From positions 1-64,000 of the forward strand of contig CALXVG010000003.1 in NCBI GenBank assembly GCA_944391955.1: 64,000 bases of DNA. The letters run 5' to 3'. Positions 7,417 through 58,916 of this stretch are shown one piece after another. Numbering within the stretch: position 1 is the first letter of the stretch; the number at the start of each line of letters is the position of its first letter. The notes beneath the pieces were generated by a model. That model made no database searches. It saw nothing but the letters and a program-made list of their open reading frames with translations, and was not told the DNA's origin. Source of the DNA: an uncultured Clostridia bacterium (GTDB lineage Bacteria; Bacillota; Clostridia; TANB77; CAG-508). Made by a program: the position numbers and the translations under genes.

Positions 7417-9618
7417 TTATCTGGTTAGTTTATTTTCTAGCCCTGTATTTCTTTTTTTGGTTTCTGTATTTTGTATCATAAAATTTACTATATTGTTTGT
7501 ACCTAATACAATCAATAATTCTTTTGCTCTAGTAATTCCTGTATATAATAAATTTCTTGTAAGCAACATTGGTGCTGCTTGTGGTAAACACATTATAACA
7601 ACATCAAATTCACTTCCTTGAGATTTATGTATTGTGATACTATAACTATGTTCTATTTGGTCTAATTCATTGAACTCATACCATGCGTTTTTTTCATCAT
7701 CAAAACATATCTCTATTTGCTTTGTTTCTTCGTTGATATTTGTAATTGTTCCTAATTCTCCGTTAAAAATACCTGTGCCATCTTCATTATTATTTTTTAC
7801 CCAATATATATCATAATTGTTTTTTACTTGCATTACTCTATCTCCAATTAGAAAAGTTCTATCACCAACCTTTTTAGAAATTTCTGTATTATGATTTAAT
7901 GCTTTTTGTAATGCTATGTTTAATTCTTTTGTTCCTAATTTTCCTTTTTTTGTAGGAGTTAATACCTGGATATTCTTGAAAAAATCATAGTTTCCATATT
8001 TTTTTAGTCTTCCTGTACATAAAGAAATTACATCTTGAAACATTTTTTCTTGAGAATTTTCATTTATATAGAAAAAATCTTGCAATTGTCCTTCTTCTGT
8101 TTCTTTCTCATATGTTGCAAATGTTTCTCCATTATTTACTTTATGCGCATTTGTTATAATTTGACTTCTTGCTGCTTGTCTAAAAACTCTATTTAATTCA
8201 ATTGTTTCAATTGCACCAGAATTTATTATATCTTTTAATATGTTTCCTGGTCCTACTGAAGGTAATTGGTTTATATCTCCTACTAAGATTAGTTTTGTTC
8301 CTAAGTATATTCCTTTAAGCATATAATTCATTAAAAATACATCTACCATAGACATTTCATCAACTATAATTACATCTGCATCAATTGGGGTAATAGGATA
8401 ATCTACTCTTTCAAAATTTAAAGTTTCTTCCATCTTACCTATTTCTAATAATCTATGTATAGTTGTTGCTTCTTCTCCAGTAGTTTCATACATTCTTTTA
8501 GCTGCTCTACCAGTAGGTGCACATAGAACTACTTTTTTTCCTTCATTTTTGAATAATTCTATAATGAATTTTATAATTGTTGTTTTTCCTGTTCCTGGCC
8601 CTCCTGTAATAATACATACATTATTTTCATTAACTGTTTGAATTGCTTCTTTTTGTTTATTAGATAATATAATATCTGATTTTTCTTCTTCTTTATGAAA
8701 TTTAGTTTTAAAGTCTTTTATTTTTTTTATGTTTTTTGCTTCATTTAGTGCAAATAATTTGTCTGCAATATTTTTTTCGCATATATAAAATGTGTCTAAA
8801 TATACCCATGTTCCATTGTTTTCTTTTTCTATATAAATTTTGGTTTGTGCTTTTAAATTTATTAATGAATTTTCAACATCTTCTTCATCTACGTCTAACA
8901 GTGTTTCTACAAATTTGACTAAATTTTCCTTTTCCACGCATGTGTTTCCATTCTGACTACTCAATGCTAAACTATATTTTATAGCACTTTCTATTCTCTC
9001 ATTGCTGTTTACTGCTATTCCTAAATCTAAAGCCATTTTATCTATTTTTTTAAAATCCACTCCATATGTTATATCAAGTAACATATATGGATTTTTCTCT
9101 ATCTGTTCAATTGCATCTTTTCCAAAACTTTTATACACTTTTTTGCTGTTTTGTGCTGATATTCCAAATTTTTCAAGGAATCCAACTATTTGCCACAAAT
9201 CCCATTTTTCGTTAAATTCTTCTGATATTCTTATTGCTTTTTCACTATTAATTCCTTTTACCATTGATAATTTTTCTGGATTATATCTAAGAATATCTAT
9301 TGTTTCTTCTTTAAATTTATCTACTATTTTCTTAGCAGTTGCTGGTCCTACTCCTGTAATAATCCCACCGGCTAAATATCTTTCTACTGCTTCTGTCGTT
9401 TCTGGCATTAATTTTTCAAAAGTTTCTATTTTGAATTGTCTTCCATAATCTGGATGATTTACATAGTTACCTTCTAACTTTAAAAAATCTCCTTTTTCAA
9501 TAAAAGGCAAATATCCTGTAACAACTATAATTTCTTTTTCTGTGTTTAAGTCTGCTACAGTATAACCATTTATTTCGTTTGAATATATTATATCTGTTAA
9601 TTGTCCTTTTACTTCCAA
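7417..9618 (-). CDS. recD2: RecD2-type ATP-dependent 5'-3' DNA helicase
   Basis: 733 aa. An N-terminal RecD2 extension with helix-hairpin-helix-like segments (GGIITGVGPATAKKIV) is followed by Walker A GGPGTGKTT (about 340), Walker B DEMSMVD and the C-terminal motif YSITIHKSQGSEFD. RecBC partners are absent, as usual for RecD2 of Gram-positives. The start is TTG, preceded by an AAGGGG SD. First gene of the operon; its promoter is visible at 9649-9677. Confidence 0.95.
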   Translation of the reverse strand: MEVKGQLTDIIYSNEINGYTVADLNTEKEIIVVTGYLPFIEKGDFLKLEGNYVNHPDYGRQFKIETFEKLMPETTEAVERYLAGGIITGVGPATAKKIVDKFKEETIDILRYNPEKLSMVKGINSEKAIRISEEFNEKWDLWQIVGFLEKFGISAQNSKKVYKSFGKDAIEQIEKNPYMLLDITYGVDFKKIDKMALDLGIAVNSNERIESAIKYSLALSSQNGNTCVEKENLVKFVETLLDVDEEDVENSLINLKAQTKIYIEKENNGTWVYLDTFYICEKNIADKLFALNEAKNIKKIKDFKTKFHKEEEKSDIILSNKQKEAIQTVNENNVCIITGGPGTGKTTIIKFIIELFKNEGKKVVLCAPTGRAAKRMYETTGEEATTIHRLLEIGKMEETLNFERVDYPITPIDADVIIVDEMSMVDVFLMNYMLKGIYLGTKLILVGDINQLPSVGPGNILKDIINSGAIETIELNRVFRQAARSQIITNAHKVNNGETFATYEKETEEGQLQDFFYINENSQEKMFQDVISLCTGRLKKYGNYDFFKNIQVLTPTKKGKLGTKELNIALQKALNHNTEISKKVGDRTFLIGDRVMQVKNNYDIYWVKNNNEDGTGIFNGELGTITNINEETKQIEICFDDEKNAWYEFNELDQIEHSYSITIHKSQGSEFDVVIMCLPQAAPMLLTRNLLYTGITRAKELLIVLGTNNIVNFMIQNTETKKRNTGLENKLTR

Positions 9619-11521: not shown

Positions 11522-11914
11522 CTAGATAATATTTTTAAATTTTTCTACAAACTTTTCTATTGTATATATATGAGTATTTTTTATTCTTGTATATATTTCT
11601 TTCGCCATTTCTTCTTTATATGTATGTGTTATAAGATTTCTATCTCTTAACATATCCATATAAGCTTGTCCATCCTCTAAATATCCATTCTGAAATCCTA
11701 TTTTTATTACTCCATTTGGTCCATGTTCTTCTAATATTCCTAAATATTCTAGATATTTTTGTAAAAATTTCCAAAATAATTCAAATGTAAATTCATATGC
11801 ATGAACTATTCCTGCTCTTGATAATTCAGTATTGTTATCTTCCTTTAAAAATTGTTGTAACTTTAAATACGCTTTGCATAAATTCTCATATGATTGTTTT
11901 AAATTATCTGGCAT
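11522..11914 (-). CDS. hepT: HepT-like HEPN toxin (nucleotidyltransferase substrate-binding)
   Basis: About 130 aa, helical HI0074/HepT family. The HEPN motif R-X4-H is visible in DRNLITHTY near residue 95. In characterised MntA/HepT (type VII) pairs the HEPN protein is an RNase or RNA-targeting toxin and is silenced by AMPylation of a tyrosine next to the motif; the Y after the H is present here. I chose the ATG at 11914 because AAGGAG lies 9 nt upstream; an in-frame TTG at 11923 is possible. It overlaps mntA by 11 nt. It lies inside the hydrogenase operon, 15 nt before hydA. Confidence 0.85.
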   Translation of the reverse strand: MPDNLKQSYENLCKAYLKLQQFLKEDNNTELSRAGIVHAYEFTFELFWKFLQKYLEYLGILEEHGPNGVIKIGFQNGYLEDGQAYMDMLRDRNLITHTYKEEMAKEIYTRIKNTHIYTIEKFVEKFKNII

Positions 11915-43580: not shown

Positions 43581-46500
43581 TTATTTAACATCTTTATATT
43601 TTCTATATGATACAAATGAGAAAATCATTATTACTGTGATTCCTACAATTGCTATTGGTATAATTGTTTCTTCAATACCTGTATAAGCAATATCCTTATC
43701 TGCTGTTGTACTATCCGTAGTTGTAGCAGTTGAACCAGTTGAACCAGTTGAGCCAGTTGAACCAGTTGAGCCAGTTGAACCGCTTGAACCGCTTGAATCT
43801 GTTGAACCAGTTGAGCCTCCGACATTTACTCCGCCCGGTATCTCTACATCAAACATAGGATCATCTAATATGCTTCCGCCATTATTCGTTGCATTTTGTA
43901 CAGTAATTGGTGTTGTTACTGTTTTTGTTACTCCATTTTCTGTATATGATATTGTTACTGAAGTATCACTCAACCTTAATGCTACTGTTGGTGCATATTT
44001 ATAATCTGTGATTCTTTTACTTGTTCCATCTGAATATGCGGCTGTTACCACCATTCCTGTTGGATTAAATGTTTCTCCCACAGTATAACTGGTTTTAGTT
44101 GGTGGTGTTGTTATTGTTATTTTTGTAAGTGTTACCGTTGTTGTTGTTTCTGTCACTGTAATTGTTTGTTCCGCTATTTTTGTTACTCCACTTTCTGTAT
44201 AACTTACTGTTATTTTTGTATCATCTTTTGTTAACGCTGTTGTTGGTGAATATGTATAAGTTGTTACTGCTGATGTTGTACCATCACTATAGTTTGCTGT
44301 TACCGCCATTCCTATTGGAGAAAACTTTTCCCCAACCTTGTAACTAACTTTATTTGGTGGTGTTGTTATTGCTATTCCTTCAAGTATTTTACTTTCTTCT
44401 GTTTTCTCAGTTACAGTTATTTGTTGTTCTGCTGTTTTGGTTATATTGCCTTCTGTGTAACTTATTGTTATTTTTGTATCATTTACTGTTAGTGCTGTTG
44501 TTGGTGAATATGTATAAGTTGTTACTATTTTTGAACTATTATTGCCATATGAAGCTGTTATTACCATTCCTGTTGGATCAAATACTTCTCCTAAAATATA
44601 ATCAACCTTATTTGGAGGTGTTGTTATTGTAATACTTACAAGTTCATCATCAGATGTCAATGAATCTTCATTTACTACTATTATTTGTTCTGCTGTTTTT
44701 GTTACTCCACTTTCTGTATAAGTTATTGTTATTTTTGTATCATCTTTTGTTAATGCTGTTGTTGGTGAATATAGATAATCTGTTATTGTTGCTGTCGTAT
44801 TATCATCATAAGTTGCTGTTACTACCATTCCTGTTGGATCAAATGTTTCTCCTTCTGCATATTCTATTTTAGTTGGTGGCGTTGTTATATCTATTTTAGT
44901 TAAAGTTTTGTTTACAAGTACAGTAACCTTTTGAGTAGCTTTTCTGATTACTCCATCTTCTGTATAAGATATTTCCACTTCATATTCATAATTAGATTGT
45001 TCATTTCCTGATGAAGCAAATGAAGACGTCGAATATTTATAATCAGTTACTGGTTGTGATGTTCCGTCACTATAATAAGCTGTTATTACCATTCCTGTTG
45101 GATCAAAACTTTCGTTTAATAGATATGTTGTTTTATCTGGTTCTTTTGTTATTTCTATACTTGATAATTTATTTGCTCTTCCTGGATGATATTTACATGC
45201 TGTATTTGTACATCCAAAGCAATATATTTCATCACATCCATCGCCACCACAAGTACATTCTTTAAATCCTTTGAAGCTTACAAATCCATTACCATAATAA
45301 ACATCTTTTCCTTCTTCTCCTACATCTTGTGCATAGTACATTAATATTTCTTCTATTTGGTCACTTGTATACTCTGGATTATATGTTTTTATAGTTGCTG
45401 CAGCAGCACTTATATGAGGTGTTGCTTGTGATGTTCCATCATATGAGCCCATTTGGCTATCAGCCATAAAGCCAAATATCAAAACTCCTGGTGCAACAAA
45501 ATCTACACATTCTCCATAATTTGAGAAACTTGCTATTTCTACATCGTTTGCTGTAGTATTTTTATATGTATCATATTCTCCTACAAATAAATCTATCATA
45601 TTATCTTGTGTAAGATCTGCTGTTGATGAAAGCGACATCAATTTTGTTCTAACTGCTCCTACAGTTATAACATTTTCTGACTCTGCTGGATACATGTCAT
45701 TTCCTTCTATATCTAAATTTAGACCACTGTTTCCAGAAGCTACAATACAAGTAATTCCTCTTTCATATGCTCTATTAATAGCTGTTTGTTCTTGTTCAGT
45801 AGTAGCATCTCCGCCTAAACTCATATTTATTATATCTGCACCATTTTGAATTGCATAATTAATTCCACTAATTATTGACGCATCTGTTCCTATAGCCTGT
45901 CCATCTTCACCAACGTCTAAAGCTTTTATTGGTATTATCTTTACATTATCTGGTGCACCTTCTAGAACAATTCCACCTACATTTGTACCATGTCCATCAT
46001 TATCTGTTACATCAGTAGTATATTCTATTGAATTATATCCTGTTAAAATTCTATCTGTTAATCCTCCTTCTACTACCTGTGTATGTTCTATATCAAATCC
46101 AGAATCTATTACTGCAACAATAATTTCTGGATTATCTGTTTTTTGGTCTATTATACTTTCTGTTTCATCTAATCCCATAGAAATTGCTCCCCATGATGAG
46201 AAAGTACCATCGCCTGTTGTCCAATAATATATTTTGCTAATTTCTTCATTTATATTTTTTACTTGGTCTGGACTTACAGATTCTATTTGTGTATCTTCTT
46301 TTATTTTTTCATAAGCCCTTCTTGTTTCTTCCTCTGTTTCATATTCTAGGGTATACATTTTTGTTTCATCTGCTTCTCCATCTAAGATAATATTAATGTT
46401 AGTTGGGTTATACGTTTGTTCAATTTCTTCTTTGGCCAATCTCGTTTCAACTATTAATCTTTTTAATTGAAAATCTATTGTATCACTTTGTGCATTCTCT

Positions 46501-46619
46501 ACAGTCTGTGTTTTATTTTTTAGTGCTGTAGAAATTCCCCATATTCCTGTGCTTATGAGTGCAATAATTAAAATTGCTAGTATTAAAATTCGTAATTGTT
46601 TCTTTTTTCTCTGTATCAT
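43581..46619 (-). CDS. Anchored subtilisin-like (S8) protease with five Ig-like repeats
   Basis: 1012 aa from the ATG at 46619, which has GAGAAAGG about 10 nt upstream; an ATG at 46655 would add 12 residues. N-terminal membrane signal, a prodomain, then the S8 triad: Asp in VIDSGFDIEH (about 172), His in DGHGTNVGG (about 210), Ser in DGTSQATPH (about 397). A Cys-rich patch (CTCGGDGCDEIYCFGC) follows, then five tandem 75-80-residue Ig-like repeats, each with FDPTGMVVTA-like cores and YTESGVTKTA ends. A Ser-Thr-Gly linker, the sortase-like IAYTG motif, a membrane helix and a KYKDVK tail close it. Likely a wall- or membrane-anchored surface protease. Confidence 0.92.
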   Translation of the reverse strand: MIQRKKKQLRILILAILIIALISTGIWGISTALKNKTQTVENAQSDTIDFQLKRLIVETRLAKEEIEQTYNPTNINIILDGEADETKMYTLEYETEEETRRAYEKIKEDTQIESVSPDQVKNINEEISKIYYWTTGDGTFSSWGAISMGLDETESIIDQKTDNPEIIVAVIDSGFDIEHTQVVEGGLTDRILTGYNSIEYTTDVTDNDGHGTNVGGIVLEGAPDNVKIIPIKALDVGEDGQAIGTDASIISGINYAIQNGADIINMSLGGDATTEQEQTAINRAYERGITCIVASGNSGLNLDIEGNDMYPAESENVITVGAVRTKLMSLSSTADLTQDNMIDLFVGEYDTYKNTTANDVEIASFSNYGECVDFVAPGVLIFGFMADSQMGSYDGTSQATPHISAAAATIKTYNPEYTSDQIEEILMYYAQDVGEEGKDVYYGNGFVSFKGFKECTCGGDGCDEIYCFGCTNTACKYHPGRANKLSSIEITKEPDKTTYLLNESFDPTGMVITAYYSDGTSQPVTDYKYSTSSFASSGNEQSNYEYEVEISYTEDGVIRKATQKVTVLVNKTLTKIDITTPPTKIEYAEGETFDPTGMVVTATYDDNTTATITDYLYSPTTALTKDDTKITITYTESGVTKTAEQIIVVNEDSLTSDDELVSITITTPPNKVDYILGEVFDPTGMVITASYGNNSSKIVTTYTYSPTTALTVNDTKITISYTEGNITKTAEQQITVTEKTEESKILEGIAITTPPNKVSYKVGEKFSPIGMAVTANYSDGTTSAVTTYTYSPTTALTKDDTKITVSYTESGVTKIAEQTITVTETTTTVTLTKITITTPPTKTSYTVGETFNPTGMVVTAAYSDGTSKRITDYKYAPTVALRLSDTSVTISYTENGVTKTVTTPITVQNATNNGGSILDDPMFDVEIPGGVNVGGSTGSTDSSGSSGSTGSTGSTGSTGSTGSTATTTDSTTADKDIAYTGIEETIIPIAIVGITVIMIFSFVSYRKYKDVK
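43726..43820. repeat. 9-nt tandem repeat coding a Ser-Thr-Gly linker
   Basis: About ten copies of GTTGAACCA and close variants. On the coding strand it gives repeated Ser-Thr-Gly. Likely variable in copy number, without changing frame. Confidence 0.85.
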
Positions 46620-46871
46620 ATGTACCAAACCTTTCTCATAATTATAATTATACATAATTCATTATGACATATTTTTCATTTTTGTCAAGCAATTTTTTCT
46701 CTTATATGTCACATAAATAGCTATTTTATCGCATTTTTGTGTTTATTACATTTATATAACATTTTTTGTAATATTTTTGTAATGTAAAATTAATGGAATT
46801 GTAATATTTTTCGACTTATTTTGATGTATAATTATACTAAAATACAAACGAACCAAACAAAGGAGTTACAA

Positions 46872-54233: not shown

Positions 54234-55148
54234 CTAATTTTTAATTTTTGTTATATTTGCTCCTAATTTTAATAACTTTTCATCTAATTTTTCATAACCG
54301 CGTAAAATATATTCTATATTACTTATAGTTGTTGTGCCTCGTGCCACTAATCCTGCTGTACACATTGCAGCTCCGCCTCTTAAGTCGGTAGATTTTACAT
54401 TTGTTCCTATTAATTTCTTTGTGCCCTTAATTATTGCTGCTCTGCCTTCTACAGTAATTTTCGCACCCATCCTTTGTAATTCACTTACATACCTATATCT
54501 GTTTTCAAAAATGTTTTCTACCACAATTGATGTGCCTTTTGCTGTTGTAAGCATTGCTACAAAAATTGATTGCATATCTGTTGGGAACCCTGGATGTGGC
54601 ATTGTCTTTATATCTAGTGCTTTTAGCCTTTTAGGAGCTTCTAGTATTACAATATTTTTTTCTGTTTTTATTTTACAATTGCTTTCTTCTAATTTATGTA
54701 TTATTGGATTTATATGTTCTATATTTACATTGTTTAATATAATATTTCCTCCTGTTATTGCTGTCATACATAAAAGAGTTCCTGCTTCGATTCTATCTGG
54801 CATTATATTATAACTAACAGATTTTAGTTTTTTGACTCCTTCTATTTTTATAATATTAGTTCCAGCACCTTTTACTTTTGCACCCATTTTGTTTAGAAAG
54901 TTTTGTAAATCTACTATCTCAGGTTCCATTGCAGCATTTGTTATAATTGTTTCCCCTTCTGCCAAAACCGCTGCCATGATTATATTTTCAGTTGCTCCTA
55001 CTGAAGGGAAATCCAAATGTATATCTGCCCCTATTATTTTATCACAATAGCACCTAATAAATCCAGCATTTTCTTCAATTTTTATGCCTAATTTTCTAAA
55101 TCCGTTCAAATGTAAGTCTATTGGTCTTGAACCAATCTCACATCCCCC
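54234..55148 (-). pseudogene. murA: murA 3' part, cut by an integrated element
   Basis: UDP-N-acetylglucosamine enolpyruvyl transferase, C-terminal two-thirds. The frame is open from GGC-EIGSRPIDLHLNGFRKLG through SVGATENIIMAAVLAEG and MPHPGFPTDMQ to the normal end. Going upstream, murA homology stops at the codons Gly-Gly-Cys, where the cysteine is the catalytic residue (Cys115 in E. coli), and recombinase coding sequence begins. About 115 N-terminal residues are missing from the window, presumably on the far side of the element. It lies in the division cluster upstream of ftsQ. A shorter product from an internal ATG at 55109 would lack the active site. Confidence 0.85.
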
Positions 55149-56781
55149 TGTTTGTAATAGTTTGTGGATACATAAATTTCAAATGGAATGCTAAGCCTCC
55201 ATTTTCATAAAGTTCTTTGTACATTTCATCATTTAGGTTATATTCTTCTTTTTGTTCTTTTGTTATTTCTTTTTGATCAAACACTACGATTTTATCAAAT
55301 AGTCTTGATATTTCTTCTTTGGTTAGTCCATTTTTTTTGATGTCATCTATTGCTTTGAAAATTAAATCTTCTTTATCTTCTAATTTGTTTAATGTATTAA
55401 ACTTATTTTCTGTTTCTTGTAATTTTTCCTTTTCATTTTTTAACTTCTTTTCTAATTCTTGCTTTTTGTCTTTATATATAAATTCTGGAATTAAGTCATT
55501 TAGCTTATCTTCATATACTTGTTTGAATTGTTTTTCCAACTTCTCTATAGTTTGCTTGTGCTTATTTAATTCTTTCTCTAAAGTAACTTTATTTGTATTA
55601 ATTGCTTTTACATTGTTCATTACAAAATCTTTAAATTCTGGATTACTAATTAAATTATCAATATACGCATTTACGATTTGGTCTAAATACTCAATCCTAA
55701 TTCTATGAGGTTTACATCCATAATCTGGTCTTATATCTTTTATAGTACCTTCATTGCTATATTTTTTACATAAATAACTATCGGGTCTTTTTCTTGTACC
55801 ACTTGTTCCTTTTCTTTTATACATTGCAGTTCCACATCTTCCACAATACAAAAGTCCTGAGTATAAATTGTTTTCTACATCTACAAACTTGAAACCATTA
55901 TTATATTTATCACTTTCTTTTTTTCTTTTCTTTCTAATTTTTTGTACTTTTTCAAATAGTTCTTTATCAATAATTGGCTCATGATGGTTTTCAATTATAG
56001 TCCATTCTGACTCATCTTTTACTCTTGTTTTTTTAGATTTAAAACTTACTTTTTCAGTATGTCCCCCTACATAATCTCCAATATATCTTCTGTCATCTAA
56101 TATTCTTACTATATGCTGTGCTTTCCAATTTGCAGTTTGTTTTGCATTTGCAAAATTCCTACTCTGAGATGGTGTTGGTATTCCTTTTTTATTTAGATAT
56201 GTTGCAATTTTTTGATACCCCCAGTCTTTAGAATATAGTTCAAATATTTCTTTTACAGTAGAAGCTGTTTCCTCATTTATTATTAACTTTTTTCCATCTT
56301 TGTTATAACCATAAATTGCTTTCACTAATAATTCCCCTTCCTCTATTTTGTGTTTAAGGTTTCTCCTTATATTCTTGCTATCATCTCTTGCTCTTCTCTC
56401 ATTAAACCACGCATATAGTCCAAACATCTCTTCATTGTATTGTTCATCTTCAAATATAATTTCTACACCTTGTTCTTCTAAATATTCTACAAAATCTAAT
56501 GCTTCTTTTTGATTTCTTCCAAGTCTTGATGAATTTTTAAATACAATTACATCTATTTCTTTATTTTTGGCTTTTTCTTTTATATCATCAAATCTACTAA
56601 AGTCTGTACCACTTTTGTCATCATCCATTATAATGTCAACTATATTTGTATATCCATGACCTTTACAATATTTTATAAGTAAATCTCTTTGGGTTTCTAT
56701 TCTTTCATAATTTTCACCATAATCATCTCTACTTTCTCTTGCATATATAACAGTATTTTTTTCTTCATTTGATTTCTTCAT
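55138..56781 (-). CDS. Large serine recombinase
   Basis: 547 aa. Resolvase-type catalytic domain with YARESRDD (nucleophile Ser about 17) and SSRLGRNQKEALDFVEYL. Recombinase domain (KAIYGYNKDGKKLIIN, then NKKGIPTPSQSRNF), zinc ribbon (YCGRCGTAMYK with later YLCKKY and YGCKPHR), a long coiled-coil (about 400-480), and a C-terminal tail. It integrates and excises the element by attP x attB recombination. Its last codons overlap the murA-derived junction. Confidence 0.95.
   Translation of the reverse strand: MKKSNEEKNTVIYARESRDDYGENYERIETQRDLLIKYCKGHGYTNIVDIIMDDDKSGTDFSRFDDIKEKAKNKEIDVIVFKNSSRLGRNQKEALDFVEYLEEQGVEIIFEDEQYNEEMFGLYAWFNERRARDDSKNIRRNLKHKIEEGELLVKAIYGYNKDGKKLIINEETASTVKEIFELYSKDWGYQKIATYLNKKGIPTPSQSRNFANAKQTANWKAQHIVRILDDRRYIGDYVGGHTEKVSFKSKKTRVKDESEWTIIENHHEPIIDKELFEKVQKIRKKRKKESDKYNNGFKFVDVENNLYSGLLYCGRCGTAMYKRKGTSGTRKRPDSYLCKKYSNEGTIKDIRPDYGCKPHRIRIEYLDQIVNAYIDNLISNPEFKDFVMNNVKAINTNKVTLEKELNKHKQTIEKLEKQFKQVYEDKLNDLIPEFIYKDKKQELEKKLKNEKEKLQETENKFNTLNKLEDKEDLIFKAIDDIKKNGLTKEEISRLFDKIVVFDQKEITKEQKEEYNLNDEMYKELYENGGLAFHLKFMYPQTITNRGM
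55140..55148. other. Probable attachment-site core in murA
   Basis: Where murA homology meets recombinase code, the minus strand reads GGGGGATGT, the expected murA sequence for Gly-Gly-Cys. The recombinase stop codon lies in this stretch, so the crossover is here or within a few bases. Confidence 0.65.
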
Positions 56782-56866
56782 ATTATTTCACACCTCCTAA
56801 CGTATTTGAATCTATGTATCAATAACACTATTGTTGTTTATTATTTTATTGTTGCTATTATATATT

Positions 56867-56912
56867 AAAAGTTCTAAAATTTCAAGTTATACGTTGAAAT
56901 CTTAGAACTTTT
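56867..56912. terminator. Hairpin terminator after rhuM
   Basis: AAAAGTTCTAA(A)ATTTCAA and its complement around an 8-nt loop, one mismatch, with T-rich flanks. It lies 27 nt past the rhuM stop. Confidence 0.8.
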
Positions 56913-56938
56913 TTCAGTTGGTTACAAAATGTTACCAA

Positions 56939-57925
56939 CTAGTTATTATCTTTTAGCATTTTAATCATTTTATCAAAGTCACTTTCTAATTGTTTCATTT
57001 CTCTATCTCTATATATTTCGAATTCTTTTTCAGCCTTTTCCATTGCTTCTTGATGAGAAATCTTTCCTTTACCTTCAAGTAGTTTTCTTTTATTTTGTAT
57101 TATTTGATTATCTAATTCATTTATCCAATCATTCATTGTCATTGCTCTTTGTTCTAATGCTTGAAGTTCTGCAAAATCTAAGAATTGTGAAACTAATAAA
57201 TTCAACCTTTGTAATTCTATTTCTGAAAGATAATTTTTAGCAATTTTTACATCATCAATCGTAACATAATCGCCTTTAAAATTAGTCATTCCAACAAATG
57301 GCTTCTCATTGTCTACTCTCTCATATATCAGTTCCGCTGCAGTATGTTCATGAACTGCAAAATGAAGTTTGTTTTGAACTGTCGCAAAAAATTTTTTGGT
57401 TAAATCAGAACGTGGATCATAATCTATTGATGTGGCATATATGTCTGTAACTTGCTGGTAAAAATTTCTTTCAGATGAACGAATATCTCTAATTCTTTGT
57501 AATAATTCTCTAAAATATCTATTTCCACCTTGTTTTAATCTTTCATCGTCCATTGTGAATCCCTTTTGCATATATTCGTGAAGTCTTTGAGTTGCCCATA
57601 TTCTAAATCTTGTTGCCACTTGTGATTGCACTCTATATCCTAATGCTATTATCATATCTAAATTATAATGGTCTATATTTCTTTTAACTTGTCTATTTCC
57701 TTCATTTTGAACTAATAAGAATTTCTTATTAGTTGAATTATTTTCTAATTCTCCATCTTTATAAATATTTTTTATGTGCATTGAAATATTTTCTTGTGTC
57801 GTTTTATAAATTTCAGCTATTTGATTTTGTGTCAGCCATATATCTTCATCACTAAATTTTACTGAAACTTTTGTAACACCATCTTCATCTTGATAAATTA
57901 TTATATTATTTTCGTTTTTTTGCAT
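56939..57925 (-). CDS. RhuM family protein
   Basis: 328 aa. Conserved block VKFSDEDIWLTQNQIAEIYKTTQENISMHI, then QVKRNIDHYNLDMIIALGYRVQS and FRIWATQRLHEYMQKGF. RhuM proteins are frequent in genomic islands and phages; named from a Salmonella pathogenicity island, biochemical role unknown. A DNA-binding or toxin-like function is often suggested. Monocistronic with a clear terminator. Confidence 0.92.
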   Translation of the reverse strand: MQKNENNIIIYQDEDGVTKVSVKFSDEDIWLTQNQIAEIYKTTQENISMHIKNIYKDGELENNSTNKKFLLVQNEGNRQVKRNIDHYNLDMIIALGYRVQSQVATRFRIWATQRLHEYMQKGFTMDDERLKQGGNRYFRELLQRIRDIRSSERNFYQQVTDIYATSIDYDPRSDLTKKFFATVQNKLHFAVHEHTAAELIYERVDNEKPFVGMTNFKGDYVTIDDVKIAKNYLSEIELQRLNLLVSQFLDFAELQALEQRAMTMNDWINELDNQIIQNKRKLLEGKGKISHQEAMEKAEKEFEIYRDREMKQLESDFDKMIKMLKDNN

Positions 57926-58079
57926 TTTTATTCTCCATTCTATATATTTTCATATATTATTCTTATTTTCTTTATCCTATTATTTGGTTATTTGTATTTT
58001 TTTATGTTATTTAATTACTGTTATATTTATATCATAAATTAAATATTTTATCAATATTTTTACGAAAATTTGTTCTATA

Positions 58080-58244
58080 TTATTTGTATTCTTGTTTTAT
58101 TCTATCGGATATTATATCTGTAAATATTTCTTTATAATCATCTACTACATCTGTACTTTTATTATTAGGACTTATAAATACAGCAAATGGTAATTTATCT
58201 TTTTTATTCTTATGTATTTTTACTTTGTTTTCTTCTTCATTCAA
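58080..58244 (-). CDS. Small hypothetical protein (54 aa)
   Basis: TTG start with AGAGGTGG about 6 nt upstream. A basic N-terminus (KVKIHKNKKDKLPFAVFISP) and an acidic helical end (DVVDDYKEIFTDIISDRI). It occupies part of the 458-nt space between rhuM and the HTH gene; the remaining 57926-58079 and 58245-58310 show no gene. Not recognised. Confidence 0.5.
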   Translation of the reverse strand: MNEEENKVKIHKNKKDKLPFAVFISPNNKSTDVVDDYKEIFTDIISDRIKQEYK

Positions 58245-58310
58245 TAGCACCACCTCTCTAAAACAATATTCTCCTCATAAATAATTATGATATTTTTTAA
58301 GGCATACTAA

Positions 58311-58349
58311 AAAGCAAGTCATTTATTTTTGTAAATAAATACTTGCTTT
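58311..58349. terminator. Hairpin terminator after HTH gene
   Basis: AAAGCAAGT/ACTTGCTTT with an inner ATTTATTT/AAATAAAT pair. Confidence 0.75.
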
Positions 58350-58383
58350 TAGTTGATTTTTTGGAACAGTATTTTGAACACAA

Positions 58384-58725
58384 TTAGACTAAGTATTTTT
58401 TTGACATTTCAATTGAATGCTGAAATTGTAAATGTTTTAAATGCTCTAGCTCGTTATTCTCTTTTTCCTTCAAAATTTCTGCTCTTAACTGTCTGTTTTT
58501 CTTTTTTCTCTCAAGATAATTTTTATGTTTTATCTCACTTTTTATTTGTTTTTCCTTCTCATATTTAGGGTGTCCTTTTAACACTTTTGAAACATATTGT
58601 GGACTTACTCCTAATTTTCGTGCTATACATTCACAGTTAAATTCTTTCTCAAAATACAATTCGCAAATTTTCTGCCTCTTGCTGCTTGGTTTGATTACCT
58701 CCTCTCTATAAATAGTAATCAACAA
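58384..58725 (-). CDS. Small helix-turn-helix protein
   Basis: 113 aa. The HTH motif in FNCECIARKLGVSPQYVSKVLKGHPKY resembles sigma-region-4 or resolvase-type HTH. The C-terminal half is a highly charged helix. Start uncertain: TTG at 58725 has AAGGA upstream, while a strong GAGGAGG inside the frame has no usual start after it. Probably an element-borne regulator. Confidence 0.65.
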   Translation of the reverse strand: MLITIYREEVIKPSSKRQKICELYFEKEFNCECIARKLGVSPQYVSKVLKGHPKYEKEKQIKSEIKHKNYLERKKKNRQLRAEILKEKENNELEHLKHLQFQHSIEMSKKYLV

Positions 58726-58916
58726 TCTTATTCCTTTGAAAATTTGACTTTTTTGTATTTCCTTACATTTTTATAGACTCATTAAGTCATTCTTTGTATA
58801 CACTTTTGTTGACAAACTTATTTTACTACATTTTTTATATAAAAACAATATATACAATAAAATTTCTAAAAATGCTTATTTTGCAGTAGTTTGAATAGTA
58901 TAAAAATGTACACAAT

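Follow-up and report, generated by a model that had tools for sequence, protein, structure and literature searches.

SCC cassettes, with their CcrA/CcrB recombinases, integrate in the chromosome and leave their target gene working. More generally, elements driven by large serine recombinases (LSRs) are site-specific, exchange DNA at a 2-bp core and target conserved coding genes, each LSR cluster having a single target gene (Durrant et al. 2022, PMC10083194). The main text of that study does not name murA, and a search of the literature accessible to us found no report of murA as an LSR target. The skin element, described in sigK of both B. subtilis and C. difficile, is an LSR element that interrupts a chromosomal gene (PMC5025042). 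According to a review (PMC8371274), the only recombinases known to disrupt the gene that encodes them are archaeal tyrosine enzymes (SSV1, pTN3 and pT26-2). In mycobacteriophage integration-dependent immunity (PMC9934374, citing Broussard et al. 2013), attP lies in the repressor gene and integration removes an ssrA-like degradation tag.

Here we describe a locus that shares features with each of these systems. We consider it likely to be a site-specific integrative element that uses a dispensable copy of murA and whose recombinase has an integration-dependent C-terminus.

An element with a serine recombinase splits murA1

The window analysed here comprises bases 1-64000 of a 111,313-base contig (C3) of a draft genome of 1.27 Mb. 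One of the two murA copies of this genome, murA1, is split by a 9,637-bp element carrying a serine recombinase, delimited by joining of the flanks (55147..64000, and on to C3:64784 outside the window). The 3' part of murA1 lies on the minus strand (54234..55148), from the interrupted Gly codon through the Cys to the stop. Its approximately 305 codons have no start codon of their own at the junction; they open with the Gly-Gly-Cys of the catalytic loop, retain the catalytic residues and correspond to Pfam EPSP_synthase positions 112-417. The codons preceding them on the same strand are those of the recombinase (55138..56781, read from 56781 to 55138), which in its integrated form has 547 aa, last residues R-G-M and, inside attR, a TGA stop made of murA DNA. 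A family search of the genome located the missing 5' part of murA1 outside the window at C3:64771-65124, where C3:64786-65124 adjoins the matching core. CAGGGG is common to both junctions, 9,637 bp apart, and when the flanks are joined in silico they give one complete 417-aa MurA with FSYPGGCEIGSRPID.

The initial annotation had claimed that a serine recombinase element interrupts murA and had proposed looking past 64000 for the 5' part next to a matching core; the claim is borne out, the 5' part and the core lying at the other end of the element on the same contig. It had also placed the cut in the catalytic Cys codon. The active-site loop is indeed the target, but the cut falls two codons upstream of the Cys (residue 116), in the first Gly codon of Pro-Gly-Gly-Cys (55147/55148). 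Its identification of the gene as the division-cluster murA holds, since ftsQ/divIB, two DUF881 genes and a DUF1290 gene follow murA1 on the same strand. Because the recombinase has the same orientation, its transcription could run on into these genes.

As LSRs we took proteins of about 500 aa or more with the Resolvase catalytic, Recombinase and zinc-ribbon (Zn_ribbon) domains. In the 547-aa recombinase all three (PF00239, PF07508 and PF13408) score above cut-off in the domain search, and the sequence contains a Y-A-R-E-S motif. The nearest named NCBIfam model is CcrB (8e-31), but the protein reaches only 107 bits against a cut-off of 900 and is therefore not a Ccr. The flanks join precisely and the site is found empty in relatives, two features expected of a site-specific integrative element.

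A two-base core in the codons of the catalytic loop

The crossover dinucleotide GG, placed by host variation and by the dyads, supplies bases 1 and 2 of the Gly codon that lies two codons ahead of the Cys. At attR it lies at 55147..55148 on the minus strand, inside CAGGGG (55150-55145), and its attL partner is at C3:64785-64784, outside the window. Hosts vary at the Pro codon (CCT/CCG) and again after GG; with differences flanking both sides, GG must be the whole of the core and the only bases exchanged. With GG at the centre, attB and attP each form an imperfect dyad, so that the locus has the two-base core and dyad half-sites of an LSR system. In the attB of the window genome, 9 of the first 11 dyad positions match, against an average of 3.4 of 12 for other GG sites in murA.

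The recombinase (65-97% identity) is encoded at 78 loci from other genomes, at least 77 of which have it at the same murA codon: it reads directly into murA at that codon in 74, the murA 5' half lies upstream in 3 more, and 1 ends at a contig end. Insertion at a site other than murA was found at none of the 78. The recurrence of an identical junction excludes a chance origin, and it answers the earlier call to check relatives for the same site; the suggestion that a conserved active-site codon makes a good target across hosts is likewise supported. In the mechanism that we propose, the LSR would recognise the stretch of DNA that codes for the catalytic loop of MurA (Ser-Tyr-Pro-Gly-Gly-Cys-Asp/Glu), an imperfect dyad around GG, and would recombine the attP of the element with the attB of murA1, splitting the gene. 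Constraint at the protein level (Ser-Tyr-Pro-Gly-Gly-Cys) would thus provide a shared dyad-shaped target through which one element can cross many hosts.

The element family is widespread, occurring in many Clostridia of a single bacterial family. Of 390 genomes sampled there, 44 have an LSR match (E <= 1e-50, a few of them distant); the element is absent from most relatives. Outside that bacterial family recombinases are only about 40% identical, and distant LSRs (about 35-40%) have no murA in their flanks where these are readable.

Two recombinase variants deserve mention. The most distant member (L132, 65%) has the full TCNTATCCAGGAGGTTGTGATAT at both junctions (8400-8500 and 11590-11640); its flanks thus look like a target of about 25 bp that has been duplicated, ahead of which the recombinase frame stops. 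Five loci in different hosts (L134, L136, L138, L139 and L140) have in common a one-base insertion near recombinase codon 239 (GGTCGG/GGCCGG, with the rare Arg codon CGG) that shifts the frame, while the half after the insertion is still 87-97% identical; a +1 programmed frameshift is possible, as is a defective but mobile lineage.

Integration changes the end of the recombinase

The attP site falls within the recombinase gene, at its 3' end, and the reading frame of that gene crosses the core. It follows directly from the sequence that the coding end differs between circle and integrated state. The integrated recombinase ends TITNR-x-M/L/V, its TGA coming from the host TGT-GA (Cys-Asp/Glu) read in another frame. 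When the DNA beyond attL is set behind the core, as it would be in the circle, the frame continues to ...NRGLRYLIDTSDKFKINEWI-EFK, and the protein made from the circle would end ...TITNRGLRYLIDTSDKFKINEWI-EFK; the tail of the window element itself is an atypical variant, RGLRYLIDILDKQYYQKKM. The tail frame is kept at 36 of 55 attL sides, with exactly 22 aa in 26 of these, and the canonical tail is missing at the other 19, a few of the 55 being duplicates or out of register. Integration thus appears to remove a conserved 22-aa tail, which excision would restore.

The tail frame may quite possibly be incidental, attP merely overlapping the 3' end of the gene and both protein forms working alike. 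In distant LSRs the protein stops at the last strand or shortly past it and has no tail, and some members of the family itself lack one at attL, those at 65-72% identity included. Nucleotide conservation on the attL side argues the other way: it is high for about 50 nt, well beyond the 25-nt arm of an att site, then falls, and is low past the stop codon near 70 nt. Moreover, distinct changes in the tail are synonymous in 20 of 62 cases against an expected fraction of 0.20, an excess seen in the coding frame alone, other frames being at or below expectation. This excess is a modest one, and the attP site itself could account for some of the conservation.

We propose that the tail matters for activity or for direction. 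Most probably the long form would act in the circle as it enters a host, with the short form marking the integrated state, a swap that would bias the system to stable integration. We put forward only tentatively the stronger proposal, that the long form of the circle is the integration-competent one and that its exchange for the short chromosomal form sets direction with no separate directionality factor. How direction is controlled in serine integrases is an open question, and one of practical interest given their use in genome engineering; a recombinase gene that is altered by the reaction of its own product offers a testable way to achieve such control.

The element moves between hosts in which murA1 looks dispensable

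The recombinase is more conserved than the host murA in 556 of 561 pairs. Among L094, L096 and L098, LSR dS is 0-0.007 while dS of the murA 3' part is 0.62-0.70; for L114/L115 the values are 0.044 and 0.70. The element of the window genome (G000) and that of L083 are 92-95% identical in DNA, against 69-77% for the host flanks. Since near-identical recombinases sit in hosts with strongly different murA, the element moves horizontally, and this divergence led us to reject vertical inheritance within the genus. We also rejected L086/L107 as a case of one host murA receiving two distinct elements (murA dS 0.015, LSR dS 0.226): the flanks are only about 84% identical, and the near-identical 3' halves could equally well stem from gene conversion or local recombination around murA.

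A second murA had been suggested in the initial annotation as cover for the loss, and a complete copy is indeed present on contig 9 (C9): an intact MurA of 435 aa, above the NF009470 cut-off and 45% identical to murA1. In the 40 related carrier genomes this MurA2 is full-length in 34, fragmented or frame-shifted in 2 and missing in 4 (G106, G152, G345 and G359). We do not count these four as carriers without cover; the gene next to MurA2 in the genomes compared is missing in all of them too, which makes an assembly gap a simpler explanation than a true loss. With 3 of 12 positions matching, the murA2 site lacks the dyad; it agrees with the attB consensus at 23 of 50 positions, compared with 42 of 50 for murA1, and these differences would account for the sparing of murA2. 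Given the second MurA, and given that murA1 is broken by frame shifts in some element-free relatives (G003, G007 and G009), murA1 looks dispensable; MurA2 would supply the enzyme while murA1 is split. In two of these relatives the frame shift falls at the same place, around residue 180-200 (L033 2400-2460 in G003 and L034 2440-2500 in G007).

As the alternative to a second murA, the initial annotation had compared the element to skin, with excision restoring murA. In such an arrangement, timed excision, or excision in a subpopulation, would keep murA1 under selection. Of 75 loci, 57 still have an open murA 3' half that retains the key catalytic residues, and in the close pairs examined, where both members have the element, its dN/dS is about 0.03-0.19 (NG86 values at larger distances are saturated and were left out). 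Frequent excision would fit these figures, but recent insertions fit them equally well, and horizontal transfer shows several insertions to be recent. The 3' half is broken in the remaining 18 of 75 loci, about a quarter of carriers, and the frame-shifted murA1 of the element-free relatives again points to dispensability. The cargo shows no conservation, and a search of 390 assemblies for the attP pattern turned up no excised form, the sole match being an attR with two mismatches. A regulated element of this kind is accordingly unlikely, although the insertion itself may be reversible, and a developmental role does not agree with a mobile family of variable cargo that most relatives lack.

Variable cargo and possible routes of transfer

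The element of the window carries, all on the minus strand, a RhuM family protein of 328 aa (56939..57925; PF13310, E 3e-108) with homologues in 9 elements, a small protein of 113 aa with weak helix-turn-helix similarity (58384..58725; cluster 10, 7 loci), a 146-aa protein with no assigned function (58917..59357; cluster 9, 7 loci) and a superfamily-2 helicase in two parts. Of the helicase, the C-terminal part (959 aa, 59344..62223) is in a different frame from the N-terminal ResIII/DEAD part recognised by domain search (685 aa, 62381..64000, with its start at C3:64438 outside the window), the split falling between motif I and the DELH motif. The same two-frame junction is present in a different host (L083 2171-7433); it is either an inherited defect or a programmed frameshift. 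A domain search of the ORFs of this element found no relaxase gene, and we do not class it as an integrative mobilizable element. Elsewhere in the window, inspection by eye pointed to a secreted subtilisin-like protease of 1024 aa that has repeated Ig-like domains and, at its C-terminus, a membrane segment (43581-46655, minus strand).

Across the family, elements range from 2.6 to 13 kb and the DNA behind the recombinase differs widely, with cargo that includes MobV-type relaxases, RhuM, Bro-N, reverse transcriptase, SNase, TIR, oligonucleotide cyclase and SF2 helicases, among others. The element moves between related Clostridia with exchangeable cargo, including defence-type genes. Conjugative mobilisation is likely for those elements that carry a MobV-type Mob_Pre relaxase (12 relative loci). 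In the G002 element (L109 2358-4819), a TIR protein (PDC-S66, ThsB-like) adjoins a 530-aa protein that is SIR2-like by eye, a pair that is likely anti-phage cargo. The G106 element contains a second, divergent murA 5' fragment (residues 1-105; L107 5723-6037, L182), which may have been picked up from a previous host or may be the remnant of a tandem insertion.

LSRs are common phage integrases, and RhuM and Bro-N genes occur in phages, so that a prophage or satellite integrated in murA might be envisaged. We regard this as very improbable: LSR relatives are absent from IMG/VR, 50,697 phage records and 72,556 plasmids, the ORFs of the window element include no virion or packaging genes, and family members can be as small as about 2.6 kb or carry the MobV relaxase. 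Although the source is a draft genome, an assembly chimera fusing murA to unrelated sequence can be dismissed, because both junctions lie on one contig with exactly matching cores and dozens of independent assemblies show the same junction.

Comparison with known systems

This element gives serine recombinases a further known landing site, the catalytic loop of murA, whose product performs the first committed step of cell-wall synthesis; the murA paralogue makes the site safe to break. The element family carries defence-type cargo between gut bacteria. SCC cassettes are alike in having the LSR at one end of the element, variable cargo and a fixed chromosomal site, but their target gene stays working whereas murA1 is destroyed. 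As in skin, an LSR element interrupts a chromosomal gene and the flanks join in frame; unlike skin, the murA element is mobile between species, has variable cargo, interrupts a gene that has a paralogue and gives no sign of developmental control.

The LSR elements of Durrant et al. share the site-specific LSR, the 2-bp core, a target inside a conserved coding gene and the restriction of an LSR cluster to a single target gene; here, however, attP lies inside the LSR gene and integration alters the C-terminus of the protein. In this respect the murA element resembles mycobacteriophage immunity (PMC9934374), since in both an attP inside coding sequence allows removal of a C-terminal tail to switch a protein. 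There the protein is a repressor with an ssrA-like tag, while here it would be the recombinase itself, with a tail that is not ssrA-like. In the suicidal integrases of archaea (PMC8371274), too, the integrase gene contains the recombination site, so that integration disrupts it. Those are tyrosine recombinases cut into two inactive parts, whereas the murA recombinase is a bacterial serine enzyme that loses a 22-aa tail only and keeps its catalytic domain intact.
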